From assembly GCA_011525845.1 (NCBI GenBank), contig WYBP01000014.1:248001-312000 (forward strand): 64,000 bases of DNA. Reading direction: 5' to 3'. The stretch is from Gemmatimonadaceae bacterium. GTDB lineage: Bacteria; Gemmatimonadota; Gemmatimonadetes; Gemmatimonadales; Gemmatimonadaceae. Shown one piece after another: positions 27,809-49,155 of the stretch. Below the pieces are notes generated by a model. It ran no database searches. It saw only the letters and a list, made by a program, of their open reading frames with translations, and was not told where the DNA came from. The translations under genes and the position numbers were made by a program. Numbering within the stretch: position 1 is the first letter of the stretch; each line of letters starts with the position of its first letter.

Positions 27809-27835
27809 CCGGTGCGGTAGCCCTACCGCGACCGG
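27809..27835. terminator. Hairpin between convergent genes, likely bidirectional terminator
   Basis: A perfect 7-bp stem GCGGTAG/CTACCGC (27814-27820 and 27823-27829) with a 2-nt centre is extended by CCGGT/ACCGG with one bulged base. It lies between the transketolase stop and the stop of the nucleotidyltransferase gene, which it overlaps. There is no U-tract. Confidence 0.5.
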
Positions 27836-28311
27836 CGGATCTCCTCCAGCACCAATAGGTCCGCGACGTCCTGCGGCCGGCCCGTCCGCTTCGAGGCGAT
27901 GAGATCATCCAGCGATACCGTCGGGATCGCGACCCCCTCGACCTCGAAGCGTTCCGCCGTTCGGATCGCATCGCGGTACCGGACGCTCCACGCGAGCGTG
28001 AGGATGTCGACCCGCGGCGAGTCGCCGATGATCGTCACGAACTTGCGTGCCACCTCGGCCGCTGCCCACTCCTTCGAGAAGCCGTAGCCGGTCGTCGCGA
28101 GCGCGACGAGCACGCGTTGCGCGTTCTCCTCGGTCGGGTCGATCAGGATGTCGATGTCGCGCGTCGCGCGGGCGCTGCCCCAGAGTTGCAGGGCGCGCGC
28201 GCCGACCACCAGGTAGCGCGCGCCGGCCTCATTGAGCCGCCAGCAGATCTCGGCGAGCTCTGTCCGGAAGGGTGGTCCTACGACACCCCGATCGTCTCGC
28301 GGTGCTTCCAT
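27823..28311 (-). CDS. Nucleotidyltransferase, putative toxin partner of an XRE antitoxin
   Basis: A 162-residue protein with a minimal nucleotidyltransferase fold: the strand-loop GSARATRDIDIL (45-56) carries the two catalytic aspartates Asp52 and Asp54, and a third acidic residue is in RVDIL. It resembles AbiEii/DUF6036-type and MNT enzymes, which modify tRNA or proteins in toxin-antitoxin systems. The start at 28311 overlaps the end of the XRE gene by 34 bp, so the antitoxin-like gene is translated first. The toxin role is an inference from fold and context; I cannot tell which molecule it modifies. Confidence 0.7.
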   Translation of the reverse strand: MEAPRDDRGVVGPPFRTELAEICWRLNEAGARYLVVGARALQLWGSARATRDIDILIDPTEENAQRVLVALATTGYGFSKEWAAAEVARKFVTIIGDSPRVDILTLAWSVRYRDAIRTAERFEVEGVAIPTVSLDDLIASKRTGRPQDVADLLVLEEIRRSR

Positions 28312-28700
28312 GCGAAGTAGTCCTCGAAACGGTCGAAGGTCACGAAGAGCGAGGCGCACCGGCGCATCGGTACCTCGCGAGCGGTCCGTTCGGCCGCCAG
28401 CACGCGCTCCGTCGGCGTCAGCGCCAGGTCGGCGGCGAGCATCGCGCGTCGCGAGTCGTCCAGGCGCGGCGGTCGTGTTGGGGGGTCGGCGACGGAGGCC
28501 GGAGCGAGCTCGCAGCGCAGCGAGAACCCGGCGACCGCGAGGAGTCGCTTCAGGGTGCCGAGGGAAGGCTGCACGCCACCCCCCTCCAGCCGTGCAACAG
28601 CCGATTGCGACGTGCCCGCCCCTTCAGCGAGCGCGCGCTGGCTCAGCCCGCTCCGCGCACGCGCTTCCGCGAGAAGTCGTCCGGGATTGATATCATCCAT
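28278..28700 (-). CDS. XRE-family DNA-binding protein, putative antitoxin
   Basis: A 140-residue protein with an XRE/Cro-type helix-turn-helix at residues 7-60 (LLAEARARSGLSQRALAEGA, then SQSAVARLEGG and LGTLKRLLAVAG). The C-terminal 75 residues (a helical segment and then FVTFDRFEDYFAWKHRE) are of unknown type and may contact the nucleotidyltransferase. Its ATG at 28700 is covered by an ATATCA-N4-TGATAT dyad, and a second copy lies 20 bp upstream at the -10 box, as expected for autorepression. The DNA around the start is strikingly AT-rich compared with its neighbours. Confidence 0.78.
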   Translation of the reverse strand: MDDINPGRLLAEARARSGLSQRALAEGAGTSQSAVARLEGGGVQPSLGTLKRLLAVAGFSLRCELAPASVADPPTRPPRLDDSRRAMLAADLALTPTERVLAAERTAREVPMRRCASLFVTFDRFEDYFAWKHRETIGVS

Positions 28701-28746: not shown

Positions 28747-30057
28747 CTAGAAATCGTCCCGCCCCCCGATATTCCCGAACCGCGGATTCACCACGTTGTT
28801 GAAGATCGACCCGAACTGATACCGGAGCCCGAAGAAGGTGAAGTACCGGTAGTTCGTCGCCAGCGCCTGCTGACGCGCCACCACCTGCACCGGCGTGAGG
28901 CCCACGGCCGAGAGGTAGAGCTGGTCGCGCACGCGGGAGACCGAGCCGCTCACCTCGAACGAGAGCCCGCGGCCGAGTCGCACGTCCACGTTCCCGCGGA
29001 TCCCGGCATTGTAGAACTTGAGGCCATCCAGGTACTGCGAGCCCGAGAGGGTGACGTTGGCCGAGCCCCAGGGCTGCCGCGCGCCGAAGGTCGCGTCCAC
29101 CGAGTGCACGGGGCGCGTCTCCTCGGTCTTTCCATAGATGGTGGTATCGCGGTAGTTGATGGCGCGCATGCCGACCGTGTAGAGCACGGTGAGCTTTCGC
29201 CGCGTGAAGTCCTTGTACGGGAAGTAGTCCCATTCCACGGCGGCCGAGGCCTGCGTGGAGAGGTCGGTGTTCCGGTATGACGCCTGATGCGACCCCACCT
29301 GCCCGCCCACGGACCAGTGGTCGCCGAGACTCTTCACCGCCATCCCGCTCACGCCGTAGTTGCGCTGGATGTTCGTGAAGGTCGTGACGCTGTCGATCTG
29401 GAAGCTCGAGCCGTCGTACGAGTAGTTCGCGTTCATCCGGACCTTCCACGCCTCGGTGGTCCGATTGGCGTTGATGCTCGAGAAGAAGTTCGTGAAGGTC
29501 TGGTTCGACTCCCCATTCAGGAAGCCGTTCCCCGAGACGCTGAAGGTCCAGAAGTTCCACTTGTCGCGCGCCGGGGCGGCCGCGGCACTCCCGGCCGGCG
29601 GCGGCGCGAACGAGATCGTGAGCCGGCTTCCGAGCGCACCGCGCGCCGCGTGCGGGAGCAGGAGCTGGCCGATCACCCGCTGCAACTGCCGGCGGATCAG
29701 GTCCGTCGCGTCGTTCGGGCCGGTGTTGAAGGTGAGCGTGTCGGTCTTCCCCGCGTACGACCGCTGCCCGATCGCGACCACGGTGTAGAGCCGCCCGCCG
29801 GAGCCTGTCGTCTGTGATGTCACCAGCAGGTGGAAGTCGGCGTCGAGCCGCTCGCGCATCCAGTTCACCCAGGTCATCTCGGTGACGAGGAAGTCGCGGT
29901 CGCACCCCATCACGTCGCAATCAAGGAAGGCACGGACGGCGGAGGCCTGCGAGGTGTCTGCCTGGGGCGCCCCTTCCTGCGCGTGCGCGACCGTCGCCGC
30001 GATCCCGAGCGCGAAGACGAGGACGAGGGCGCGAAGCAGCGTCTTCGGTGTGGGCAT
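28747..30057 (-). CDS. Predicted outer-membrane protein with CDRDF domain (paralogue A)
   Basis: A 436-residue exported protein: signal peptide ending AHAQ (about 26), an N-terminal domain with FLDCDVMGCDRDFLVTE and LDADFHLLVTS, and a C-terminal beta-rich region that looks like a barrel (alternating aromatic strands, ending YQFGSIFNNVVNPR). Its closest relative in the window is the protein at 35520, with the same motifs in the same order; the two flank a TldD/TldE/peptidase/ATP-grasp cluster and face away from it. I do not recognise a named family. The start at 30057 is chosen for the signal peptide; a TACATT box lies at 30102-30097. Confidence 0.7.
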   Translation of the reverse strand: MPTPKTLLRALVLVFALGIAATVAHAQEGAPQADTSQASAVRAFLDCDVMGCDRDFLVTEMTWVNWMRERLDADFHLLVTSQTTGSGGRLYTVVAIGQRSYAGKTDTLTFNTGPNDATDLIRRQLQRVIGQLLLPHAARGALGSRLTISFAPPPAGSAAAAPARDKWNFWTFSVSGNGFLNGESNQTFTNFFSSINANRTTEAWKVRMNANYSYDGSSFQIDSVTTFTNIQRNYGVSGMAVKSLGDHWSVGGQVGSHQASYRNTDLSTQASAAVEWDYFPYKDFTRRKLTVLYTVGMRAINYRDTTIYGKTEETRPVHSVDATFGARQPWGSANVTLSGSQYLDGLKFYNAGIRGNVDVRLGRGLSFEVSGSVSRVRDQLYLSAVGLTPVQVVARQQALATNYRYFTFFGLRYQFGSIFNNVVNPRFGNIGGRDDF

Positions 30058-30286
30058 CGTAATCTCGGGGGTGGGAGGGTGCGCCAAGGCGTGCACAATG
30101 TACGGTCCGAACAGGACGGGGGTTCCGGCACGCCTTCCGTTTGATTGCACGGACCCGGAATTCGTTGCCTTGGAGTGCCCCACCACACCCGACAGAGGTG
30201 CCTCCGCCACGGTTTGCCATCCCCCACCCCTCGGGCGACATTCCCCCCTCGCCCGACCCGGACTCCTCTCCCCACAGAGCCCGCCC

Positions 30287-31912
30287 ATGACCACCCGCCG
30301 CGACTTCCTCGCCTCCACCGGACTCGCCGCGAGCGCCATCGCGCTCGCCGGCCGCCGCGCGAATGCCGCCGGAATCCGCTCGCCGATCCTCACGCCGGAC
30401 ACCGAGCCCGATCCGGCCGTGAAGGTGCTCCTCCTCGAGGCCCTTACCGCCGCGAAGCTCGCCGGCGCCTCCTGGGCCGACGCTCGCGTGCAGCGCGCGC
30501 GCCGCCAGAACCTCGGCACCCGCGAGCAGCAGGTCACGAACGTCTCCGACACCGACACCATCGGCTGCGGCGTCCGTGTCCTCGTCGACGGCACCTGGGG
30601 CTTCTCGGCCACGCGCGCACTCACCAAGGAGGGCGTGGCCCGCGCCGCCAAGCAGGCGGTCGCACTCGCCAAGGCCAACCGCGTCGCCCGCGACCGGCAG
30701 GTGAAGCTCGCCCCAACGGAGTCGCACCCGAGCGCGACCTGGAAGTCGAGCTACACCATCGACCCCTGGTCCATCCCGGTGGAGGAGAAGGTCGACCTCC
30801 TGCTCCGCGCCAACGCCGCCGCGCTCAAGGTGAAGAACATCAGATTCGTGAACTCGAACCTCTCGTTCGTGAAGGAGGAACGCTCCTACGCGAACTCCGA
30901 GGGTTCGATGATCGCGCAGGACGTGGTCCGCAGCTGGGTCACGATGAGCTTCACCGCCATCTCCGACGACCGCACCGAGGTCGCCACACGCGGCCCCGAG
31001 GTGGTGCAGCCGATGGGACGCGGGTGGGAGTACGTGCTCGAGAACGACATCGTCGCCAACGCGCCGATCTGGGCGGAGCAGGCGCGCGAGAAGCTCACCG
31101 CGCGCCCGGTCGAGGTCGGCAAGTGGGACCTCATCATCCACCCCTCGCAGCTCTTCCTCACCATCCACGAGTCGATCGGCCACCCCACCGAGCTCGACCG
31201 CGCGATGGGGTACGAGGCGAACTACGCCGGCACCTCCTTCATCGCCCCGCCCGACGACGTGCTCGGCAAGCTCCGACTCGGCCCCGACCACCTCACCATC
31301 CGCGGCGACCGCTCGCAGCCCAACGCCCTCGCCACGATCGGCTATGACGACGACGGCGTGAAGCCCCAGGACTTCGACATCGTCAAGAACGGGATCTTCT
31401 GGGACTACCAGACCACGCGCGAGCAGGCCGAGTGGCTGCGTCCCTGGTACGAGAAGAATGGGATGCCGGTGCGCTCGCACGGGTGTTCGTATGCCCAGAG
31501 CTGGAGCGACGTCGCCTTCCAGCGGATGCCGAACGTCTCGATCGTCCCCGACCAGCGCGTCGACCGCTCGATGGACGACATCATCGCGGCGACGGACAAG
31601 GGGATCGTCTTCATCGGACGCTCCTCCTACTCGATCGACCAGCAGCGCTACAACGCGCAGTTCGGCGCGCAGGTCTGCTACGAGGTGAAGGGAGGGAAGA
31701 TCGTCGGCCAGCTCCGCGACGTGGCCTACGTGATGCGCACCCCCGACTTCTGGAACTCGATCGACCTGATCGGCGGGAAATCCTCGTACGAACTCGGCGG
31801 CACCTTCAACGACGGCAAGGGCCAGCCCGGCCAGTCGAACGCGGTGAGCCATGGCTGCCCACCCTGCCGCTTCAAGAACATCAACGTCCTCAACACGGGG
31901 CGCACGCTGTGA
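30287..31912 (+). CDS. tldD: TldD-type metalloprotease with a Tat signal peptide
   Basis: A 541-residue TldD/PmbA-family protein. The HExxxH zinc motif of TldD is HESIGH at residues 294-299, followed by TELDRAMGYEANYAG. TldD and TldE form a protease that trims modified or unfolded peptides (microcin B17, CcdA antitoxin). Unusually, this protein starts TTRRDFLASTGLAASAIAL and then AGRRANA: a twin-arginine signal peptide with a hydrophobic core and Ala-x-Ala cleavage site, implying export of the folded protein. Its stop overlaps the GTG of tldE (GTGA). Confidence 0.88.
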   Translation: MTTRRDFLASTGLAASAIALAGRRANAAGIRSPILTPDTEPDPAVKVLLLEALTAAKLAGASWADARVQRARRQNLGTREQQVTNVSDTDTIGCGVRVLVDGTWGFSATRALTKEGVARAAKQAVALAKANRVARDRQVKLAPTESHPSATWKSSYTIDPWSIPVEEKVDLLLRANAAALKVKNIRFVNSNLSFVKEERSYANSEGSMIAQDVVRSWVTMSFTAISDDRTEVATRGPEVVQPMGRGWEYVLENDIVANAPIWAEQAREKLTARPVEVGKWDLIIHPSQLFLTIHESIGHPTELDRAMGYEANYAGTSFIAPPDDVLGKLRLGPDHLTIRGDRSQPNALATIGYDDDGVKPQDFDIVKNGIFWDYQTTREQAEWLRPWYEKNGMPVRSHGCSYAQSWSDVAFQRMPNVSIVPDQRVDRSMDDIIAATDKGIVFIGRSSYSIDQQRYNAQFGAQVCYEVKGGKIVGQLRDVAYVMRTPDFWNSIDLIGGKSSYELGGTFNDGKGQPGQSNAVSHGCPPCRFKNINVLNTGRTL

Positions 31913-33339
31913 GCACGCTCAACAGGATCCCCGACTCGCCGAAGCGCCTGATCGCGCACGCGGCCGCCGCACGCCACGGCGTGCTCGACGAACCGCTCGT
32001 ACTCTCCCGTGCCGAGTGCGAGGACATCGTCGCCCGCGCGCTCGAGCTCTCCAAGGCCGACGCCTGCCGCGTCTCGGTCGGGAGCTCGTACGAGACCAAC
32101 CTCCGCTTCGCCGACAACCAGATGTCCACGTCCGGCGTGACGGACGACGCGAGCATCACGATCTCCCCCGTGTTCGGGAAGAAGCGCGCGAGCGTCTCCA
32201 CCAACGATGTCTCCCGCGAAGGGCTCGCGCGCGCCGTGGCGCAGGCGGAGGCGCTGGCGAAGCTCTCTCCCGACGATCCGGAGCTGATGCCTGAGCTCCC
32301 GGCGCAGCAGTACGCGTCCATCCCGGCCTGGTTCGACTCGACCGCCTCCCTCAGTGCGGACGAACGCGCACGCGCCGCACTCACCGCCCTCGAGCCCGCG
32401 CGCCGCTCCAGCGACCTCACCGTCGCCGGCTTCATCGTCTGCAACGCGAACGCCACCGCGGTCGGCACGAGCAACGGCCTCTTCGCCTACCACCGCACCA
32501 CGGGCGCGAACTACACCCTCACCGTCCGCACCAACGACGGCACGGGTTCCGGCTGGGTGGGCGCGGACGAGAACGACTGGACGCGCATCGACTTCGCCGG
32601 GATGGGCACGCGCGCGATCGAGAAGGCGCGCGCCTCGCGCAACCCGTCCGCGATCGAGCCCGGGCGCTACACGGTGATCTTCGAGCCGCAGGCGGTGGCC
32701 GACCTCATCGGCTCCGTACGCGGCGCGATGAACGCCCGCTCCGCCGACGAGGGGCGCTCCCCCTTCTCCAAGGCCGGCGGTGGGACCAAGCTCGGCGAAC
32801 GGATCATGGATCCGCGCGTCACGCTGCTCTCCGACCCCGCCGACCCGCAGATCCTCGGCGCGCCCTTCGACGGCGATGGACTGCCGCAGGGCCGGCAGGT
32901 CTGGGTCGAGAAGGGCGTGCTCACCCAGCTGGCGTACACCCGCTTCTGGGCACAGAAGACCGGGAACACCCCCACCGGTGGCGGGGGCGGGTTCGGCGGA
33001 GGAGGCGGCGGGCTCAAGATGCTCGGCGGCACCAGCTCGCTCGACGCGATGATCGCCGGCGCCGAGCGCGCGGTGCTGATCACGCGGCTCTGGTACCTGC
33101 GGTCTGTCGACCCGCGCACGATGGTCCTCACCGGGCTCACGCGCGACGGCTCCTTCCTGGTGGAGAACGGGAAGGTCTCGCGGTCGATCAAGAACTTCCG
33201 CTTCAACGACTCGCCCCTCTTCTTCCTGAACAACGTCGAGGCCATCGGCCCGACCGTGCGCACGGGGGATGGCGGGAGCGTGGTGCCGGCGGTGATGTCG
33301 CGCGACTTCAACTTCACCAGCCTGTCGGACGCGGTCTGA
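31909..33339 (+). CDS. tldE: TldE/PmbA-type partner of TldD
   Basis: A 476-residue TldE-type subunit. It shares the TldD/PmbA fold (SYETNLRFADNQMSTSGVTD near residue 60, the late RSIKNFRFNDSP and DFNFTS segments) but has no HExxxH, as expected for the non-catalytic partner. No signal peptide is visible, in contrast to TldD, so it could be exported only by riding on the Tat substrate. A glycine-rich insertion (GGGGGFGGGGGG, near residue 365) is unusual. It is translationally coupled to tldD. Confidence 0.85.
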   Translation: MSTLNRIPDSPKRLIAHAAAARHGVLDEPLVLSRAECEDIVARALELSKADACRVSVGSSYETNLRFADNQMSTSGVTDDASITISPVFGKKRASVSTNDVSREGLARAVAQAEALAKLSPDDPELMPELPAQQYASIPAWFDSTASLSADERARAALTALEPARRSSDLTVAGFIVCNANATAVGTSNGLFAYHRTTGANYTLTVRTNDGTGSGWVGADENDWTRIDFAGMGTRAIEKARASRNPSAIEPGRYTVIFEPQAVADLIGSVRGAMNARSADEGRSPFSKAGGGTKLGERIMDPRVTLLSDPADPQILGAPFDGDGLPQGRQVWVEKGVLTQLAYTRFWAQKTGNTPTGGGGGFGGGGGGLKMLGGTSSLDAMIAGAERAVLITRLWYLRSVDPRTMVLTGLTRDGSFLVENGKVSRSIKNFRFNDSPLFFLNNVEAIGPTVRTGDGGSVVPAVMSRDFNFTSLSDAV

Positions 33340-33374
33340 ACCTCGCTTCCACCTCGACCACCCCCGCCTGACCG

Positions 33375-34400
33375 ATGCCGCGCCGCTACCCCTGGGCCAA
33401 GTGGCCCGACGATCGCCTGCTCGACCTCCGCTTCCGCGAGCTCAAGCTCCGGATGGAGGGCACCTGGATCGCCGAGTGCGTGGCCGACCTGCATCGCGAG
33501 CTCGAGAACCGCGACATCCGGCTCAAGCCGCACATCTGGATCTCCGACGAGTGGTTCTCGCCCGACGGCGTCTCCGGGTTCGCGGTCCCGTTCTACCTGA
33601 TGCATCCGCGGCTGATGAAGCTCGAGCGCTCGCAGTTCATCGAGATCGAGGGGGGCACGTACAACGAGTGCATGATGATCATGCGCCACGAGACGGGGCA
33701 CGCGATCCAGCACGGGTACCAGCTGCAGCGCCGGCGCGAGTGGCAGCGGCTCTTCGGCAAGTCCTCCACGAAGTACCCGGAGGCGTACCGCCCCAACCCC
33801 GCGAGCAAGCGCTACGTGCAGCACCTGCGCCGCTGGTACGCGCAGAGCCATCCGGACGAGGACTTCGCGGAGACCTTCGCCGTCTGGCTCCGCCCGCGCA
33901 GCGACTGGCGCCGGCGCTACAAGGGATGGCCCGCGCTTCAGAAGCTCGAGTACGTCGATGAACTCATGAAAGAGATCGCAGGTGAGCGCGTGCCGAACCT
34001 CGACCGGCGCGTGCTCGATCCCGTGCGCTCGCTCCGCACCACGCTCCGCGACCACTACGCGCAACGGCGCGCGCTATATTCGGTCGAGTATCCCAAGACC
34101 TACGACTACGACCTCCAACGCCTCTTCTCCGACGATCCGAAGCACCGCCGCAAGCGCACGGCGGCGAGCTTCCTGCGCGAGCATCGCGCCGAGATCCGAC
34201 GGATCGTCTCCCGCTGGACCGGCGAGTACCAGTTCTCGCTCGACCAGGTGCTCACCGACATGATCGGGCGCTGCCGCGAACTCAAGCTCCGCGCGGTCGG
34301 GAACGAGCGTGAGTTGCTCACCGACTTCCTCGTGCTCCTCACCGCGCGCACGATGGGCTTCCTCGTCGGGCAGGCGCGCCGCGACTGGATCGCGGTATGA
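33375..34400 (+). CDS. Putative zinc-binding metallopeptidase
   Basis: A 341-residue protein with the zinc motif HETGH (105-109) and a likely third ligand in DEDFAETFAVWL about 60 residues later, as in zincins. No signal peptide is seen, so it probably acts in the cytoplasm. The remainder is helical and basic. It ends in an ATGA overlap with an ATP-grasp ligase gene, a pairing that suggests a joint role in building or trimming a peptide-like product. The substrate is unknown. Confidence 0.75.
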   Translation: MPRRYPWAKWPDDRLLDLRFRELKLRMEGTWIAECVADLHRELENRDIRLKPHIWISDEWFSPDGVSGFAVPFYLMHPRLMKLERSQFIEIEGGTYNECMMIMRHETGHAIQHGYQLQRRREWQRLFGKSSTKYPEAYRPNPASKRYVQHLRRWYAQSHPDEDFAETFAVWLRPRSDWRRRYKGWPALQKLEYVDELMKEIAGERVPNLDRRVLDPVRSLRTTLRDHYAQRRALYSVEYPKTYDYDLQRLFSDDPKHRRKRTAASFLREHRAEIRRIVSRWTGEYQFSLDQVLTDMIGRCRELKLRAVGNERELLTDFLVLLTARTMGFLVGQARRDWIAV

Positions 34401-35410
34401 AGAAGCTCCGCGTGCTGGTCCTCGCGCATCCCGACCTCGTGCCGCCGGAGGTCGTCAGCGCCCTCTCGCCGCGTGAGTCGTTCGACATCAAGACCGAGTA
34501 CGACGTCATCTCCACCCTTCGCAAGCTCGGCCACGACGTGCACGTCCTCGGCGTGCAATGGGAGCTCCGCCCGGTGCGCGAGGCCGTGGACGTGCTCAAG
34601 CCGGACATCGTCTTCAACCTGATGGAGGAGTTCCACGGCGAGACGGTGTACGACCACAACGTCGTGAGCTTCCTCGAGCTGATGAAGGTGCCGTACACTG
34701 GCTGCAACCCGCGCGGCCTGATGCTCTCGCGCGGAAAGGCCCTCTCCAAGAAGATCCTGCACTACCACCGCATCCGGACGCCGGAGTTCGCGGTCTTCCC
34801 GATCGGACGGAAGGTGCGGCGCCCGAAGCGACTGAACTTCCCGGTGATCGTGAAGTCCCTGATTGAACACTCCTCGCTCGGGATATCCAAGGCGTCGGTG
34901 GTCGACTCCGACGAGGGGCTCGCCGAGCGGGTGCGGATGGTGCACGAACGGATCGGCACCGACGCGATCGCCGAGCAGTTCATCTCCGGCCGCGAGATGT
35001 ACGTGAGCGTCCTCGGCAACGACCGCTTGGTCGCGTTCACCCCCTGGGAGCTCGTCGCCGAGAAGGCGGAGCCGGGTGAGCCGCTCATCGCGACCGCGCG
35101 CGCGAAGCACGATCCCGACTACCAGACCAAGAAGGGTATCGTGATCCAGGCGGTGCAGCAGCTCCACCCGGACGTGGAGGAGCGGCTCCTGCACGACAGC
35201 AAGCGCATCTACCGGATCCTCGAGCTCTCCGGGTACGCGCGCGTGGACTTCCGCATCGACGAGGATGGGAAGCACTACTTCCTCGAGGCGAACCCGAACC
35301 CGGACATCGCCGAGCACGAGGAGTTCGCGTCGAGCGCGTCGTTCGACGGCGTGCCGTACCCGAAGCTCCTCGAGCGCATCATCCGGCTGGGGCTCCGCCA
35401 GCACGAGTAG
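34397..35410 (+). CDS. ATP-grasp ligase, D-Ala-D-Ala ligase-like
   Basis: A 337-residue ATP-grasp enzyme related to D-alanine-D-alanine ligases. The ATP-binding lysine region (NFPVIVKSLIEHSSLGISK, about 150-168) and the metal-binding end (RVDFRIDEDGKHYFLEANPNPDI) are visible. The N-terminal substrate domain is unlike Ddl, and a true ddl gene is present at 46815, so this is probably not a peptidoglycan enzyme. It forms an amide or peptide bond in an unknown product. It overlaps the metallopeptidase gene by 4 bp. Confidence 0.8.
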   Translation: MKKLRVLVLAHPDLVPPEVVSALSPRESFDIKTEYDVISTLRKLGHDVHVLGVQWELRPVREAVDVLKPDIVFNLMEEFHGETVYDHNVVSFLELMKVPYTGCNPRGLMLSRGKALSKKILHYHRIRTPEFAVFPIGRKVRRPKRLNFPVIVKSLIEHSSLGISKASVVDSDEGLAERVRMVHERIGTDAIAEQFISGREMYVSVLGNDRLVAFTPWELVAEKAEPGEPLIATARAKHDPDYQTKKGIVIQAVQQLHPDVEERLLHDSKRIYRILELSGYARVDFRIDEDGKHYFLEANPNPDIAEHEEFASSASFDGVPYPKLLERIIRLGLRQHE

Positions 35411-35519
35411 CGCTGCAGCGCGCGCACGAGCGTGCGTGCGAACGTTCTCGCGCGCCGCTGCGTAGCCCATGGACCGGCCGGCGCACGCGCGTCGGCGCGA
35501 TTCCCCCGACACCGATCCC

Positions 35520-36836
35520 ATGGAGAACCACCGAGCGCGGCCCGCACTCGCAGCATCCGTAGTGTCCCTGCTCGCCACCCTGTGCGCCCTGGCCCTCGGG
35601 AGCGCGATCCACGCAACTGGCGCCGCCGCGCAGGGCCCGCCGCCGCCGCCACCCCTCCGCGTCTTCCTCGACTGCCCGAGCGGCGGCTGCGACCGCGATT
35701 TCCTCATCACCGACCTCCCCTTCGCGCTCTGGACGCAGGACCGGCTCGACGCCGACGTGCACCTCCTCGTCACGCGCATCGGCACCCCGGCCGGGGGGAG
35801 TGAGTTCACGATGGGCTTCATCGGGCAGCGACGCTTCGCGGGCCGCGTGGACACGCTCGTCACCTTCGTGCCCCCCAACACCTCCGACGACACGCGCCGG
35901 CGCGAGATCGCCCGAGTCGCCAAGATCGGGCTCCTCCGCTACGCGGCGCGCCTCCCGGGGCAGGAGCGCTTCAGCGTCGTCTACGCGGCCCCGCTCACAT
36001 CCGCGCCGGCCAGCGGTGCCGCCGGCGCCGACGATCCCTGGAACCTCTGGGTCTACCGCGCGCGTGTGAACGCCAACGGCAGCGCCGAGAGCCGCGAGAG
36101 CGACTACGAACTCGGGGCCTCCCTCAGCGCCTCGCGCACCGCGGAGGTGTGGAAGCTCGACTTCTCCGTCGAGAACGAGTACCGCGCCAACCGATACGAG
36201 CTCTCCGACTCCACGGAGCGCCGCTTCATCCGGCGGAGCTTCGACGCGAGCTTCCGCGCGGTGCGCAGCCTCAGCCGGCACTGGTCGGTGGGCACGCGGG
36301 TGGCGAGCGAGCAGTCGGACTTCCGGAACCTCGACGCGAGCGCGGAGCTCGACCTCTCCGCCGAGTACAACTACTTCCCGTGGGCCGAGGCGACGAGCCG
36401 GCAGTTGATCGCACTCGTCGCGGTGGGCGCGCGATACAACGACTACGCGGAGGTCACGATCCGCGACCTCACCACGGAGCTCCGGCCGATCGCGCGCGCG
36501 ATCATCGCGGGGGAGTCGCGGCAGGCCTGGGGCACGGTGGACGCGTCACTCCGCTACGCGCGCTACCTCCACGACTCGGAGACCTACAGCATCAGCTTCA
36601 ACGGGCGCACGAGCCTCCGGCTCTCCCGCGGGCTCTCCCTCGACCTCCGCGGCGAGGCGGCGAAGGTGAACGACCAGCTCTACCTCCCGCGCGGCGATGC
36701 CACGGACGAGGAGGTGCTCACGCGACAGCGCTCCCTCGCCACGGCCTTCCGGCTCAATGGCTCGATCGGACTCAGCTTCACCTTCGGCTCGATCTTCAAC
36801 TCGATCGTGAACCCGCGGCTGGATGAGCTGCGCTGA
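35520..36836 (+). CDS. Predicted outer-membrane protein with CDRDF domain (paralogue B)
   Basis: A 438-residue exported protein, paralogue of the protein at 28747. The signal peptide runs to about GAAAQG (37), then a proline run and FLDCPSGGCDRDFLITD and LDADVHLLVTR motifs. The C-terminal two-thirds are beta-strand-like and share LSRHWSVG, the YNYFPW site, RGLSLDLRG, NDQLYL and the end FTFGSIFNSIVNPR with paralogue A. An outer-membrane barrel is the likely form. It lies 109 bp after the ATP-grasp gene on the same strand. The function is not known to me. Confidence 0.7.
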   Translation: MENHRARPALAASVVSLLATLCALALGSAIHATGAAAQGPPPPPPLRVFLDCPSGGCDRDFLITDLPFALWTQDRLDADVHLLVTRIGTPAGGSEFTMGFIGQRRFAGRVDTLVTFVPPNTSDDTRRREIARVAKIGLLRYAARLPGQERFSVVYAAPLTSAPASGAAGADDPWNLWVYRARVNANGSAESRESDYELGASLSASRTAEVWKLDFSVENEYRANRYELSDSTERRFIRRSFDASFRAVRSLSRHWSVGTRVASEQSDFRNLDASAELDLSAEYNYFPWAEATSRQLIALVAVGARYNDYAEVTIRDLTTELRPIARAIIAGESRQAWGTVDASLRYARYLHDSETYSISFNGRTSLRLSRGLSLDLRGEAAKVNDQLYLPRGDATDEEVLTRQRSLATAFRLNGSIGLSFTFGSIFNSIVNPRLDELR

Positions 36837-36848
36837 GGCGCGGCCGGT

Positions 36849-37238
36849 TCAGGTCTTGACCGGCATCGCGAAGACGACCGGGTTCCCGCCCGGCTCGCGC
36901 ACCGCGATTTCGTCCATGCCGTAGAAGGTCTGCCGCCGGGGCACGAGCACCGGTGTCTTCCCGAGCGCCTTGATCACCGCTTCGAGGTCGGTCACCTCCA
37001 GGAAGAGCGTGGTGCCTCCCATCGGCGCCTTTGCGAGGCTCGGCATGTCGTCGTGCACGCTCGCGCGCGTCTGATACATCAGCTCGACGCCATCCTTCAC
37101 CAGGATCACGAACCCGAGCCCATCGCCGTGCGGCACCTCGGCCACCTGCTCGAACCCCAGCGCCTTCCAGAACGGGAGGCAGGGCTCGATCGCCTCCACC
37201 ATGAGGACGGGCGTGATCTTCTTCAGGGTGTAGGCCAT
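36849..37238 (-). CDS. VOC-superfamily (glyoxalase-like) protein
   Basis: A 129-residue protein with one vicinal oxygen chelate domain: two beta-alpha-beta-beta-beta units, beginning ITPVLMVEAIEPCLPFWKALGF and ending FYGMDEIAVREPGGNPVVFA, with a metal-ligand-like Glu near the end (VREPGG). VOC proteins include glyoxalases, dioxygenases and resistance proteins; the role is unknown. The ATG at 37238 is preceded by CCGGAG. It is divergent from the VKOR gene with 55 bp between. Confidence 0.75.
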   Translation of the reverse strand: MAYTLKKITPVLMVEAIEPCLPFWKALGFEQVAEVPHGDGLGFVILVKDGVELMYQTRASVHDDMPSLAKAPMGGTTLFLEVTDLEAVIKALGKTPVLVPRRQTFYGMDEIAVREPGGNPVVFAMPVKT

Positions 37239-37277
37239 GGGCACTCCGGGGTACGGTTGGGTCGGGGACGGACGCGT

Positions 37278-37284
37278 TAACTTA
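37278..37284. promoter_or_regulatory. Overlapping divergent -10 boxes between the VOC and VKOR genes
   Basis: The sequence TTAACTTA reads TAACTT on the + strand (37278-37283, 10 nt before the VKOR ATG) and TAAGTT on the reverse strand (37284-37279). This would give two back-to-back promoters using one AT-rich box in a 55-bp gap. Prediction only. Confidence 0.35.
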
Positions 37285-37293
37285 TCCCCCGAC

Positions 37294-37785
37294 ATGACGA
37301 CCTCGCACCGTTCCGGCGTCCTCGGACTCACCTGGCGACAGCTCATCGCGATCCTCGCGCTAGTGAACGCGTTCGTCGCCACCTACCTGCACCTCTGGAA
37401 GATCGGCAAGGCGGGCGCGCTCGCCTGCGGCGGGAGCGGCGGGTGCGCCGTGGTGCAGTTCTCGAGCTGGAGCTGGTTCCTCGGCGTGGACGTCGCACTC
37501 ATCGGCGCGGTCGGCTACACGGCGATCGTGCTCGTGGCCGCGATCGGCGCGGCGGAGGCACGGGCGGACGCGCGGTGGCCCGCGCTGGCGCTCGCCGCGC
37601 TCGTCTACCCGGCGATCCTCTTCACGGTGCGGCTCAAGTACGCGGAGTTCTTCGTGCTGAAGACCTTCTGCCCCTGGTGCGCGATCTCCGCCGTCTCGAT
37701 CACCCTGCTCGGCGTGATCGTCGCGCTCGAGCTCCGGCGCGTGCGCGGCCTCGCGCCGGCTACTTCAGCCGACCGTACTTCCTGA
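37294..37785 (+). CDS. Vitamin K epoxide reductase (VKOR) family membrane protein
   Basis: A 163-residue membrane protein with four hydrophobic segments. The paired cysteines of VKOR are present: Cys45 and Cys51 in the loop (CGGSGGC) and the redox-active CPWC at 126-129. Bacterial VKORs re-oxidise DsbA-like proteins by passing electrons to quinone and so replace DsbB. There is no fused thioredoxin domain and no DsbA-like gene next to it. Its 3' end overlaps the convergent P1 peptidase gene by 26 bp. Confidence 0.85.
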   Translation: MTTSHRSGVLGLTWRQLIAILALVNAFVATYLHLWKIGKAGALACGGSGGCAVVQFSSWSWFLGVDVALIGAVGYTAIVLVAAIGAAEARADARWPALALAALVYPAILFTVRLKYAEFFVLKTFCPWCAISAVSITLLGVIVALELRRVRGLAPATSADRTS

Positions 37786-39019
37786 ACGTCTCCACCACGC
37801 GCGCCGCCGGGAGTCCGTAAACGCGGAAGTTGTCGGCGCCGGTCATCGTGTCGGCCGCGAGCATCGCGTTCACGATCGCCTCCTCGGTGGCCTGCACCGT
37901 CGCCAGGAAGAGCGAGGAGATGCGCGCGTTGGAGAGCATCGTGAGGCGCGTGCTGTCCCCGGCCATCGCCGTATTCGGGTTGGCGGTGGAGAAGGCGATG
38001 AAGATGTCCCCCGACCCGTTCGACGCGTAGCTCCCCACGCGCCCGAGGCCGAGTGAGACGCGCGTGGCGATCCGCTTGAGTTGGTGCGGGAGGAGGGGCG
38101 CGTCGGTCGCCACCACCGCGATGATCGAGCCGAGCTCGCGCTCCGGTGCCGTGTCGTCCCGCACGGCACCTTCGCGGCAGAGCGGCGGGGCGCGCTCGCC
38201 GTCGCGCGTGGGTGGGAGCACGCTGGCCGCAGTGCAGGCGGCGAGGTCGGTGATCTCCTCCCCCACGGGCACGCCGGCGATCTTCAGGTGGCGCTGCAGT
38301 CCGAAGTTGCACTGCACCAGCACGCCGATGGTGTACCCGCCGAGTTCCGCGGGCAGCTTGCGCGACGCGGTGCCGATCCCGCCCTTGAAGCCCAGGCAGA
38401 CCATCCCCGTCCCACCGCCGACCGCACCCTCCACGACGCGGCCGCCGCGCGCACCGTCGAGCGCCTCCTTCACATGCTCGGTCTTCACGTGGAAGCCGTT
38501 GATGTCGTTCAGCGACCCGTCCCAGGTCTCGGCCGCCACCGGGAGCCCCCAGGGCTGGAGTCCCGGCATCCCCACCTGCCACTGGAGGATCCCGTCGCGC
38601 ACCACGCCCACGCTGTTGGTGTTGGTGATGCCGATCGGGCCTTCGAGGATGCCCCCCTCCTCGAGCCAGGTGGTGCCGGTCATCTCGCCGTTGCCGTTGA
38701 GCGAGAACCAGGCGCCGAACACCGGGTCGTTGCTGCGCCGGCCGCGAGGGTGGACGATCGTGACGCCGGTGCGCACCGGTCCCGTGCCCACCACCAGCGG
38801 CCCCGCCGCCCCGCGGATGATCGTGCTGTGCCCCACCTCGACGCCGGCGACGTCGGTGATGGCGTTCAGCGCGCCCGGCGTGCCGCCGATCAGGGGCGTG
38901 AGGCCGAGGTCACCGGCGCGCGGGCGCTGGGCCTGCGTCGACTGCGCCGCCTGCTGGGCTTCCGCTTCGCCGGCGGGGAGCGTGAGCAGTGCGAGGGTGG
39001 CGAGGGCGACGAGGCGCAT
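37760..39019 (-). CDS. Secreted P1-family (DmpA/BapA-like) aminopeptidase
   Basis: A 419-residue N-terminal nucleophile peptidase of the P1 family, which includes L-aminopeptidase D-Ala-esterase DmpA and beta-aminopeptidases. The precursor is expected to self-cleave before the serine in LGSIIAVVATDAP, a conserved context for the new N-terminal nucleophile. A signal peptide (residues 1-21, ending AEAQ) directs export. Other family hallmarks are NAITDVAGVEVGH near the start and GGTGMVCLGFKGGIGTASR. GGAG precedes the ATG by 8 nt. A class III aminotransferase gene ends 20 bp upstream. Confidence 0.88.
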   Translation of the reverse strand: MRLVALATLALLTLPAGEAEAQQAAQSTQAQRPRAGDLGLTPLIGGTPGALNAITDVAGVEVGHSTIIRGAAGPLVVGTGPVRTGVTIVHPRGRRSNDPVFGAWFSLNGNGEMTGTTWLEEGGILEGPIGITNTNSVGVVRDGILQWQVGMPGLQPWGLPVAAETWDGSLNDINGFHVKTEHVKEALDGARGGRVVEGAVGGGTGMVCLGFKGGIGTASRKLPAELGGYTIGVLVQCNFGLQRHLKIAGVPVGEEITDLAACTAASVLPPTRDGERAPPLCREGAVRDDTAPERELGSIIAVVATDAPLLPHQLKRIATRVSLGLGRVGSYASNGSGDIFIAFSTANPNTAMAGDSTRLTMLSNARISSLFLATVQATEEAIVNAMLAADTMTGADNFRVYGLPAARVVETFRKYGRLK

Positions 39020-39039
39020 TGATTAGTCTCCGGAAGGTA

Positions 39040-40370
<1,331 letters not shown>

Positions 40371-40374
<4 letters not shown>

Positions 40375-40601
40375 CGTCGCGGATTCGGGGTCGGGTCGGG
40401 CGGCTGGAACGCCAGCATCCTCGTGACCGTGAGGGCGAGCGTCCGCTCGCCGAGCGCGCCGGACTCGTGCGTCCGTCGGCCGGCGAACACGAGGAAGATG
40501 TCGCCCGGCGGCGCGTATCGGAAGTTGAAGCACGCCTCGGTCGTCGTGACGAACGAGGCGCCCGATCCGCGGACCGGGCGCCTCGTGTCACACTTCCATA
40601 T
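40371..40601 (-). pseudogene. 5'-truncated gene remnant, NTR/TIMP-like C-terminal fragment
   Basis: An open frame of 76 codons runs from just after a TAG (40604-40602) to a TGA that overlaps the aminotransferase ATG. The peptide reads well as protein (EACFNFRYAPPGDIFLVFAG and GERTLALTVTRML), with a Cys, FRY and a hydrophobic strand-like stretch similar to netrin-type/TIMP-like domains. No ATG, GTG or TTG occurs before the conserved part. The open frame begins 18 bp beyond the tRNA-Phe gene. I read it as the tail of a gene whose 5' end was lost at the tRNA. The family match is tentative. Confidence 0.5.
40553..40586 (-). terminator. Hairpin downstream of tRNA-Phe, likely terminator
   Basis: Perfect 12-bp arms ACGAGGCGCCCG (40553-40564) and CGGGCGCCTCGT (40575-40586) with a 10-nt loop that itself contains TCCGCGGA. 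It starts 33 nt beyond the tRNA 3' end. On the reverse strand it is followed only by a short TTCGT tract. Confidence 0.6.
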
Positions 40602-40619
40602 CTATGTCGGACATCCCAG

Positions 40620-40692
<73 letters not shown>

Positions 40693-40701
40693 GAGCACCG
40701 A

Positions 40702-40730
40702 AACGTAGTCGGGGGCCGACCCGCTCTCAA
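40702..40730 (-). promoter_or_regulatory. Promoter of tRNA-Phe
   Basis: The reverse strand carries TTGAGA (40730-40725), a 17-bp spacer and TACGTT (40707-40702), with the tRNA 5' end 10 nt further on. The GC-rich region between -10 and the start resembles a stable-RNA discriminator. Confidence 0.6.
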
Positions 40731-40912
40731 GTCGCGGGGTACTGTGGGGCGGCAGTCCGCGCCGCGGCATCCCGAGGCCCTCCAGTGGAGGGATGCCGGG
40801 GAGACCAACCCACTCTCCCACGGCCCTGTCGAACTCCATACCTTGACCCTGTGCGGCGGGCGCCCGAAACGCCCGTCGCCACCCCCGTCCCATTCTCAGG
40901 ACCCACCGCTCC

Positions 40913-42337
40913 ATGAGACCTCAGATCACGCGGCGCACGACACCCGGCGCCATCGCCCGGGCACTCGCCCTGGCGTTCGCCCTGGCGTTCGCCTTGGCGT
41001 TCGCCCTGGAAGCACTCGCACCAACACCGGCCGCCGCCCAGGGCACCCCCCTGCGCGTGCCGGTCGTGGTGGACACCCTCCCCAACGGCCTCACCCTGAT
41101 CATCCACGAGGACCGGACCGTTCCCGCGGTGACCACGAACGTCTGGTATCACGTGGGCTCGGGCGACGAGAAGCCGGGCCGCACGGGGTTCGCGCACCTC
41201 TTCGAGCACCTGATGTTCATGGGCTCCAAGAACGCCCCCTACCCGCAGTTCGACCGGCTCCTCGAGGCTGCCGGCGCCAACAACAACGGCTCCACCACGG
41301 GTGACCGCACCAACTACTACGAGAGCGGCCCGGCGAACGCGCTCCCCCTCATGCTCTGGCTCGAGGCCGACCGACTCGGCTGGATGCTCGAGACCATGGA
41401 TGCGCCGAAGGTCGACCTGCAGCGCGACGTCGTGAAGAACGAGCGGCGCCAGAGCTACGAGAACCAGCCCTACGGACTCGTCACGGAGAACCTCCTGCCG
41501 GCGCTCTACCCGGCCGGCCATCCGTACTCCTGGAGCACCATCGGCTCCATGGAGGATCTCTCCGCCGCGTCGCTCGACGACGTGAAGGAGTTCTTCCGCA
41601 CCTACTACGCGCCCAACAACGCCACGATCGTCGTCGCGGGCGCCGTGAACCCCGACTCGGTGCGCCAGCTCGTGCGCACGATGTTCGGCGAGATCCCGCG
41701 CGGGCCCGCGATCACGCGCCCCACGCCATCGAAGTTCACGCTCCGCGACACCGTCATCGTGCTCGAGGATCGCGTGCAACTGCCGCGCCTCTACCTGGCT
41801 TGGCATGGCACCCGGGAGTTCGGCCCGGACGACGCCGCGCTCGACATCGCGTCCTACGTCCTCGCCGGCGCCCGCAACAGCCGGCTCACGCAGGCCCTCG
41901 TCTACGAGCGCGAGATCGCCACCGGTGCGACCGCGTTCAACTCCTCCAAGCGGCTCGACGGGGACTTCCAGATCATCGCCACCGCACGGCCCGGCTTCGG
42001 GCTCGACACCCTGAAGGCGGTGATCGACGCCGAGCTGCGGCGGCTCGCCACCAGCGGACCGACGGCCCGCGAGATCGAGCAGGCCAAGAACGCGATCGAG
42101 GCCTCCTTCCTCAACCGCCTCGAGTTCGCGAGCGCCAAGGCCGACCAGCTGAACGCGTACTACTACGCCACCGGCACCGCGGACTACTTCCAGAAGGACC
42201 TCGACCGCTACCGCGCGGTGAGGGCGGCCGACGTGCAGCGCGTCGTGCGGCAGTACCTCCAGGCGGGGCGCGTCACACTGAGCGTGGTGCCCCAGGGCAA
42301 GCGAGAACTCGCGGCGACGCGGGGGGTGGTGCAATGA
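40913..42337 (+). CDS. Secreted M16 zinc peptidase, catalytic subunit
   Basis: A 474-residue M16-family (pitrilysin/insulysin-like) peptidase. The inverted zinc motif HLFEH is at 95-99, with the downstream Glu ligand in NERRQSYENQPYG about 75 residues later. The signal peptide is unusual: residues 18-33 are an ALAF tetrapeptide repeat encoded by a 12-bp tandem array. M16 enzymes cleave short peptides inside a two-part chamber. The ATG of the next gene, a non-catalytic M16 partner, overlaps this stop (ATGA). Confidence 0.88.
   Translation: MRPQITRRTTPGAIARALALAFALAFALAFALEALAPTPAAAQGTPLRVPVVVDTLPNGLTLIIHEDRTVPAVTTNVWYHVGSGDEKPGRTGFAHLFEHLMFMGSKNAPYPQFDRLLEAAGANNNGSTTGDRTNYYESGPANALPLMLWLEADRLGWMLETMDAPKVDLQRDVVKNERRQSYENQPYGLVTENLLPALYPAGHPYSWSTIGSMEDLSAASLDDVKEFFRTYYAPNNATIVVAGAVNPDSVRQLVRTMFGEIPRGPAITRPTPSKFTLRDTVIVLEDRVQLPRLYLAWHGTREFGPDDAALDIASYVLAGARNSRLTQALVYEREIATGATAFNSSKRLDGDFQIIATARPGFGLDTLKAVIDAELRRLATSGPTAREIEQAKNAIEASFLNRLEFASAKADQLNAYYYATGTADYFQKDLDRYRAVRAADVQRVVRQYLQAGRVTLSVVPQGKRELAATRGVVQ
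40967..41009. repeat. 12-bp tandem repeat (3.6 units) in a signal peptide
   Basis: The unit GCCCTGGCGTTC is repeated at 40967, 40979 and 40991 (one mismatch), with a partial fourth at 41003. It encodes ALAF repeats forming the hydrophobic core of the M16 peptidase signal peptide. Unit loss or gain would stay in frame. Confidence 0.9.
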
Positions 42338-43866
42338 TCGGGCGTCAGGAGTCCCCAGTCGGCGCGCACACGCGCGCTTCGTCCACGTCCGCGCCACGCC
42401 GGTCCGTCGGCCTCGTCGTGGCCCTCGCCGCCGGCCTCACCGCTGGGCTCACCACCGCACTCGTGCCGACCGCCGGCGCGCAACAAGCCGCATTCGACAG
42501 GACCCGGCCGCCGGCACTCGGCCCCGCGCCCGCGCTCACCGTGCCCACGGTCAAGAGTGGCCGGCTCGAGAATGGCGTTTCGCTCCGTGTCGTCGAGCAC
42601 CGCGAGCTCCCGCTCGTGCAGGTCACGCTCCTCGTGGCTGGCGGCGGCCGGCTCGACGGCAACGATCGCGGGCTCGCGACCTTCGTCGCCAACATGCTCG
42701 ACGAGGGCGCCGGCAAGCGCGACGCCAATGCCCTGCAGGCGGAGCTCGCCTTCCTCGGCGCCTCGCTCTCCACGGGCGCCGGGTGGGACAACACCTCCGT
42801 CTCGCTCAAGGTCGCGCGCCGCAACCTCGAGGCGGCCCTCGACCTCATGGCCGACGTCGTGCTGCGCCCGACGTTCTCGGCCGCCGAGGTGCGCCGGCAG
42901 CGCGACCTGCGCCTCGCCGGACTGCTCCAGCAGAAGGACCAGCCGGGAGCGCTCGCCTCGCTCGCCTTCAACCAGCTCCTCTTCCCCGAGGGGCATCCCT
43001 ACCACCACGCGCTCGGCGGCGACTCCACCTCCACCGCGGCCATCGATTCGGCGGCGGTGCGCGACTTCCACCGCGGCAGCTTCCGCCCGGCGCGCGCGTC
43101 GTTCATCGTGGTCGGGGACCTGAGCGAGGCGGAGGCGCGCGCGCTCCTCGGCGCGCGCTTCGGGAAGTGGCGGGCCGAGGGGCCTGAGCGGACACCGCCC
43201 CCGGTGCTCGTGCAGCCCGCGCGCCCCACGGGCGTGAAGGTCGTGCTCGTGGACAAGCCCGGCGCCGCACAGTCCGTGATCCAGATCGGCACGGTCGGCG
43301 TCGAGCGCACCAACGCCGACTACGCCGCCATCGAGGTGATGAACACGATCCTCGGCGGGTCGTTCTCCTCGCGGCTCAACACCAACCTGCGCGAGACCAA
43401 GGGCTACTCCTACGGCGCGGGCTCCGGCTTCTCCTGGCGCCCGCTCCCCGGCCCCTTCCTCGCCTCGTCGAGCGTGCGCACGAACGTGACGGACAGCTCG
43501 CTCGTCGAGTTCTTCTCCGAGCTGCGCGCCATCCGCACGGCGCCCGTGGATGCGGAGGAGCTCGATCGCGCCAAGGCCTACCTCATCCTCGGCGTGCCGG
43601 GCGACCTCGAGTCCACGTCGCAGATCGCCGGGCAGGTCGCCGGACTCGCGAACTTCAACCTCCCTCTCGACTGGCTCACCGAGTACGTGGACCGGGTGGG
43701 CAAGGTGACGGTGGAGGACGTGAAGCGCGTGGCCGAGCGGAACCTCCCGGCGGAGAACGCCCTCGTGGTGGTGGTCGGCGACCTCGCGCGCGTGCGCGCA
43801 GGCATCGAGGCACTGAACCTCGGCGAGGTCTCGGTGCGCGAGGTCGGGCAGATCGTGCGTGAGTAG
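42334..43866 (+). CDS. Secreted M16 family protein, non-catalytic subunit
   Basis: A 510-residue M16-fold protein with a signal peptide (about residues 26-49, ending AGAQ). The zinc motif HxxEH is replaced by FVANMLDEG, so it should be catalytically inactive. The R/Y-type substrate-binding segment KGYSYGAGS near residue 365 is kept. This is the usual makeup of two-subunit M16B peptidases, in which one subunit carries zinc and the other the Arg/Tyr pair. It overlaps the catalytic gene upstream by 4 bp and pheA by 8 bp. Confidence 0.87.
   Translation: MIGRQESPVGAHTRASSTSAPRRSVGLVVALAAGLTAGLTTALVPTAGAQQAAFDRTRPPALGPAPALTVPTVKSGRLENGVSLRVVEHRELPLVQVTLLVAGGGRLDGNDRGLATFVANMLDEGAGKRDANALQAELAFLGASLSTGAGWDNTSVSLKVARRNLEAALDLMADVVLRPTFSAAEVRRQRDLRLAGLLQQKDQPGALASLAFNQLLFPEGHPYHHALGGDSTSTAAIDSAAVRDFHRGSFRPARASFIVVGDLSEAEARALLGARFGKWRAEGPERTPPPVLVQPARPTGVKVVLVDKPGAAQSVIQIGTVGVERTNADYAAIEVMNTILGGSFSSRLNTNLRETKGYSYGAGSGFSWRPLPGPFLASSSVRTNVTDSSLVEFFSELRAIRTAPVDAEELDRAKAYLILGVPGDLESTSQIAGQVAGLANFNLPLDWLTEYVDRVGKVTVEDVKRVAERNLPAENALVVVVGDLARVRAGIEALNLGEVSVREVGQIVRE

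Positions 43867-46152: not shown

Positions 46153-49155
<3,003 letters not shown>

Follow-up and report, generated by a model that had tools for sequence, protein, structure and literature searches.

Gene organization of the locus

The window analysed here, a stretch of 64,000 nucleotides of a Gemmatimonadaceae genome (G000:C9:248001-312000), contains adjacent genes for TldD, TldE, a zinc metallopeptidase and an ATP-grasp ligase, which are flanked by two outer-membrane-like proteins (Table 1). In E. coli, TldD and TldE take part in microcin B17 maturation and in CcdA degradation. The locus raises the question whether these genes constitute one peptide-processing system, as a preliminary description proposed, and, if so, which of them belong to it and which substrate they would share.

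Table 1. Position and features of the genes discussed, in window coordinates
Feature	Position	Strand	Remarks
OMP1, outer-membrane-like	28747-30057	-	signal-like N-terminus and LDCDVMGCDRDFL; judged outside the system
TldD	30287-31912	+	Tat signal (RRDFL), HESIGH zinc motif; optional partner
TldE, PmbA-like	31909-33339	+	HExxxH and Tat signal absent; optional, together with TldD
Peptidase_Mx zinc metallopeptidase, cytoplasmic	33375-34400	+	HETGH 105-109, Y155, E162; first gene of the pair
ATP-grasp ligase, D-Ala-D-Ala ligase superfamily	34397-35410	+	PF07478; follows the peptidase gene in the pair; distinct from the housekeeping Ddl
OMP2, outer-membrane-like	35520-36836 (ORF open from 35469)	+	judged outside the system
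True Ddl	46815-47756		TIGR01205, 303.5 bits

All six open reading frames described earlier are present, and the 4-bp overlaps reported to join the middle genes two by two are found both between tldD and tldE (31909-31912) and between the peptidase and ligase genes (34397-34400), with a gap of 35 bp separating tldE from the peptidase gene. TldD and TldE each contain the first, second and third PmbA_TldD domains of Pfam. The peptidase belongs to Peptidase_Mx (PF15887, 36.4 bits; curated cut-off 27) and the ligase matches Dala_Dala_lig_C with 98 bits, while no Pfam family was found for OMP1 or OMP2. TldD begins with MTTRRDFLAST, a twin-arginine signal (start sequence MTTRRDFLASTGLAASAIALAGRRANA). 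The cluster had been called Tat-exported, which is correct for TldD but not for its neighbours, since no Tat or other export signal was found in TldE, the peptidase or the ligase.

The two flanking proteins are paralogues with 38% identity, confirming that they form one family. Their structure is plausibly a barrel, judging from a poor model (pLDDT 61) with many long strands. Members of this family occur in 61 of 101 Gemmatimonadota genomes in one to four copies, mostly away from the cluster genes, and lie within the region in 17 of the 88 Gemmatimonadota loci of the peptidase-ligase pair; for these two proteins, such an outcome had been named in the preliminary description as refuting its proposal. 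Because they are common and mostly located elsewhere, we exclude both proteins from the unit as bystanders whose membership in the system is not supported, and reject the suggestion that they export or receive its product. OMP2 follows the ligase in the window's genus and in some members of genus g10; this fits background synteny, because the transketolase, VKOR and M16 genes have likewise been retained. The neighbours vary outside the genus, so that the idea of one conserved six-gene cluster is rejected.

The peptidase and ligase form a conserved module

Of 168 loci, 166 have the peptidase and ligase genes adjacent; the remaining two (L037 and L085) are matches at contig edges. All 166 pairs are spaced within 300 bp, four of them inverted, and 145 share the 4-bp overlap. 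Some loci were sampled twice; across 147 distinct pairs the protein distances of peptidase and ligase correlate with r=0.97, a value reached by 0 of 500 permutations and compatible with co-evolution as well as with shared inheritance. Full-length peptidase is encoded in 29 of 101 Gemmatimonadota genomes, with the ligase adjacent in those loci that were examined. Scanning named genomes yielded 80 loci from Gemmatimonadota, Bradyrhizobium, Afipia, Dongia, Rhodoplanes, Myxococcota, Planctomycetota (Phycisphaerae), Acidobacteriota and Eisenbacteria, with the ligase adjoining the peptidase in all but L085, where the match reaches the contig end. The pair is also present in Alphaproteobacteria, and its linkage is stronger, and extends over more phyla, than is visible from the window alone. 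That the two genes stay linked through several orders and orientations strongly argues for a common job, and we firmly conclude that peptidase and ligase are a conserved two-gene module. De novo clustering of the genes around the pair gave no third gene common across phyla. Several genomes carry the ligase without the peptidase.

In another Gemmatimonadales family, the gene immediately following a related ATP-grasp ligase encodes a Peptidase_Mx with a fused double zinc ribbon (L050:8911-9903 and L052:10368-11375); here the partnership takes a third form.

The active site of the peptidase is near-invariant in the 168 homologues: HExGH is found in 167 and YAQxHPxED[FW]AE in 166, corresponding to HExxH at H105-H109 and to Y155 and E162 in a Y-x6-E spacing. 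A PDB search with the peptidase sequence gave no match, and Foldseek alone was weak for the AF2 model (pLDDT 85.8; E 0.22). By VIA-align, the fold of the model matches lethal factor (Z 9.5 over ~155 residues), PPEP (Z 6-7.6) and 4l7a (Z 6.9), all at moderate Z, a Bacteroides Peptidase_Mx1 structure being among the matches. Identity to the lethal factor and PPEP zincins is 11-20%. The peptidase may be described as lethal-factor/PPEP-like by resemblance of fold and of the HExxH...Y-x6-E active site only, with no sign of a toxin role: unlike those proteins, it has no secretion signal, toxin part or cell-binding part.

The ligase is in the same ATP-grasp superfamily as Ddl and VanA and keeps the catalytic Lys, Arg, Glu and Asn among its ATP/Mg residues K153, K237, R282, E297 and N299. 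Its score against TIGR01205 (Ddl) is 122.6 bits, below the cut-off of 245.65, and the D-Ala motifs GGxSxEReVS and PGMTxxSL, present in the genome's own Ddl, are absent from it. A housekeeping Ddl identity is rejected on these grounds, together with the true Ddl elsewhere in the window, and the substrate is expected to differ from that of Ddl. PDB matches include the L-amino acid ligase BL00235.

TldD and TldE are an optional neighbour of the pair

TldD occurs within the ~19-kb region of the pair in 19 of the 88 Gemmatimonadota loci. Ten of these belong to the window's genus and have the order tldD-tldE-peptidase-ligase on one strand; in eight loci from five other genera tldDE is convergent on the ligase, and in one it is divergent. 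In five of the genus loci only 6-54 bp separate tldE from the peptidase gene on the same strand. A first sample of 38 regions had suggested that tldDE is a genus-only neighbour, which was overturned by 60 more loci. In the peptidase tree, the three arrangements occupy different branches, arguing for at least three origins, although the counts do not separate gains from losses. The adjacent TldDs represent several different TldD lineages, and we therefore reject a TldD subfamily specific to the pair. With moderate confidence we consider that the adjacency is probably not a matter of chance, yet optional and confined to one family.

Of 17 genomes in the window's genus, 12 encode TldD, and it is these 12 that encode the peptidase. 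Among the remaining five, four retain the ligase, which directly follows transketolase in the three inspected closely. The joint absence probably reflects one loss in a reduced-genome clade.

HExxxH is conserved in 40 of 40 TldD homologues, and 36 of them have an RRxF-like start. In several (L074, L208), a lipobox comes after the Tat motif (e.g. RREF...IAGC), which suggests that these proteins would be lipid-anchored and periplasmic. As judged from sequence, the window proteins resemble E. coli TldD/TldE in having three PmbA_TldD domains, HExxxH in TldD only and a D/E pair. They differ from the E. coli proteins in the Tat signal of TldD, in the several paralogous pairs per genome and in their neighbours, which are not known for E. 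coli TldD/TldE. The recurrent association may help to explain the role of Tat-exported TldD proteins.

A family-wide small peptide

The preliminary description recommended a search for short peptide-coding genes nearby. Such a gene does exist at other loci but not in the window, where a profile of the peptide gave no match and the six-gene cluster leaves no space for it. The ~50-residue peptide has the pattern EPxGIVISRGxxxExxPxFxAYVWGPxPE, followed by a variable stretch and usually an AA end. In 24 loci, nearly all of those in the pair's second subfamily, its gene precedes the peptidase gene on the same strand at a distance of 93-289 bp; eight of these loci also have convergent tldDE. In the region searched, the peptide is missing from G033 and G107 of Gemmatimonadaceae and from G038 and G043 of another family. 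Always near the peptide, and upstream of it, is a gene for a ~255-residue protein resembling TehB/daptide methyltransferases with scores below the cut-offs. In genera g1, g8, g9 and g58, tldDE is faced by the peptide and methyltransferase-like genes, and no pair intervenes. A short gene beside candidate maturation genes, as expected of a RiPP system, is seen for the second subfamily of the pair but not within the window.

By codon position, differences in the peptide gene amount to 31/21/55%, indicating a real coding gene, and the product has no Pfam or NCBIfam match. Despite the variable preceding stretch, 42 of 49 peptides end in AA or VA, which may recall SsrA-type ClpXP tags, a likeness of the ends only. 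Within Gemmatimonadaceae, all 35 genera and 162 of 179 genomes encode the peptide, including 101 of the 105 good genomes; it is nearly always single-copy and fades outside the family. Of the 12 highest-ranked small-ORF clusters, no other one came from outside Gemmatimonadaceae, and most of those other clusters look like shadow ORFs. The copy of the window's own genome (G000:C13:210995-211120, minus strand) is located outside the window, beside a tandem tldD-tldE-tldD-tldE. At this peptide locus (L057:15962-17104, minus strand), the methyltransferase-like gene is upstream, the tandem is faced, and an fpg-like gene is located divergently beyond.

Since the peptide gene is not close to the pair in the window, and a search of 18 pair-carrying genomes from other phyla did not recover it, the peptide cannot be the pair's general substrate. 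It is also near-universal in the family, including genomes without peptidase or without TldD, and thus has a role of its own. A family-wide peptide with a fixed Ala-Ala end is a concrete and testable candidate substrate.

Possible function and alternatives

The conservation of a 4-bp-overlapping pair across several phyla implies a common substrate, unnamed as far as the searched literature shows. We tentatively favor, at not quite an even chance, that the zincin and the Ddl-like ligase edit the same carboxyl end of a peptide or protein, that Tat-exported TldDE acts on a related peptide, and that the peptide ending in AA is one likely peptide in the family, the OMPs being bystanders. In this scheme, the ligase would activate the C-terminal carboxylate with ATP and add an amino acid or short peptide, whereas the peptidase would trim or remove residues at the same end, so that the two could serve as writer and eraser. 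In Gemmatimonadaceae, TldD/TldE would then probably digest or mature a related peptide outside the cytoplasm, and this might be the ~50-residue peptide, with its AA carboxyl terminus, encoded beside the module or beside tldDE elsewhere. Several observations weigh against this explanation. TldD has an export signal and the peptidase and ligase have none; tldDE is missing from the majority of pair loci, and the ligase persists in several genomes that have lost or lack the peptidase. No peptide gene adjoins the pair in the window; the pair is present in other phyla without the peptide, and the peptide in many genomes without the pair. The proposal of a peptide-processing system stands for peptidase and ligase, with less force for TldD/TldE, and falls for the OMPs.

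A possible but doubtful alternative is that two unrelated two-gene units lie side by side, in which the pair is functional and tldDE is a free-standing protease that became adjacent by rearrangement and was then passed on within the family, again with the OMPs as bystanders. This would agree with the absence of tldDE from all alphaproteobacterial and 69 of 88 Gemmatimonadota loci and with the nearest TldD relatives (70%) being in genomes without peptidase; moreover, the convergent genes do not constitute an operon, and their arrangement could trace back to a single ancestral event. However, three separate arrangements involving different TldD lineages are difficult to attribute to coincidence, for which a rough, after-the-fact estimate is below ~1%. 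The close same-strand spacing of tldE and peptidase in the genus, and the fact that tldDE adjoins the same peptide even when the pair is absent, also argue against it.

Less probable still is that the ligase makes a small non-ribosomal product, such as a dipeptide, peptidyl metabolite or modified amino acid, which the peptidase recycles or activates, with no ribosomal peptide involved. Ligases of this superfamily commonly make dipeptides, as Ddl does and as the match to BL00235 recalls; the ligase can persist alone, and Bradyrhizobium and others have the pair without the peptide. Yet a conserved peptide gene lies directly upstream of the peptidase in the 24 second-subfamily loci, and the structures matched by the peptidase fold are endopeptidases, not dipeptidases. 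A cell-wall or resistance system of the VanA-VanX type, with the ligase making an altered D-Ala-X ending and the peptidase removing D-Ala-D-Ala, would suit a Ddl/VanA-superfamily ligase paired with a metallopeptidase, both cytoplasmic, but is very improbable given the two missing D-Ala-binding motifs, the lack of VanH or a regulator nearby, a peptidase that is an HExxH zincin rather than of the VanX (M15) type, and a normal Ddl 12 kb away.

The favored reading, editing of one carboxyl end by the pair, can be extended to a more specific pathway, which we consider rather unlikely in its complete form: the Ala-Ala C-terminus of the family-wide small protein would be extended by the ligase and trimmed by the zincin, may be modified by the methyltransferase-like enzyme, and would be processed outside the cytoplasm by Tat-exported TldD/TldE. 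If true, such a pathway for ribosomal peptides or C-terminal tagging would be new, and the copy in the window would be its second, substrate-less one.

Comparison with known systems

RimK/RimB and RloABC of Pseudomonas also co-encode an ATP-grasp ligase with a protease that opposes or regulates it, the antagonism in Rlo being shown by genetics (PMC12239564). The window pair resembles them in this joint encoding, known here from gene linkage, but combines an HExxH zincin with a Ddl-like ligase, whereas those systems use aspartic (retropepsin-like) proteases with RimK-like ligases; unlike at their loci, there is no transglutaminase or EAL protein at the pair. The Anbu operon (ATP-grasp, alpha-E, transglutaminase-like and Anbu) is described as uncharacterised, with a predicted role in peptide tagging (PMC6376114, citing Iyer et al. 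2009). According to that summary, it likewise joins an ATP-grasp protein to a peptidase, but as a four-gene operon with other ligase and peptidase folds, compared with two genes here. Searches for the peptide motifs, for Peptidase_Mx with ATP-grasp and for Tat with TldD returned nothing relevant, the 2009 amidoligase survey (PMC3268129) lying outside their scope. Thus, the kinds of component, ligase-plus-peptidase editing and TldDE, are known, whereas their combination, the cross-phylum zincin/Ddl-like pair and the family-wide peptide are absent from the searched literature.

Additional observations

Immediately upstream of the cluster (27823-28700, minus strand), a nucleotidyltransferase-like protein (DUF6036/DUF2204, weak) lies beside an HTH_31 regulator in what looks like a small two-gene module, and a comparable HTH and nucleotidyltransferase pair is found near the same place in L171. 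Downstream (37237-43866) are a VKOR-family protein, a family S58 peptidase and two M16 peptidases, whose synteny is partly kept in related genera. Elsewhere in the genome, two tandem Ddl-like ATP-grasp genes (G000:C14:5706-7501; L159, L160) may represent a further ligase pair, and such tandem genes are also adjacent in many other Gemmatimonadota (e.g. G094:C125, G026:C5 and G081:C17).
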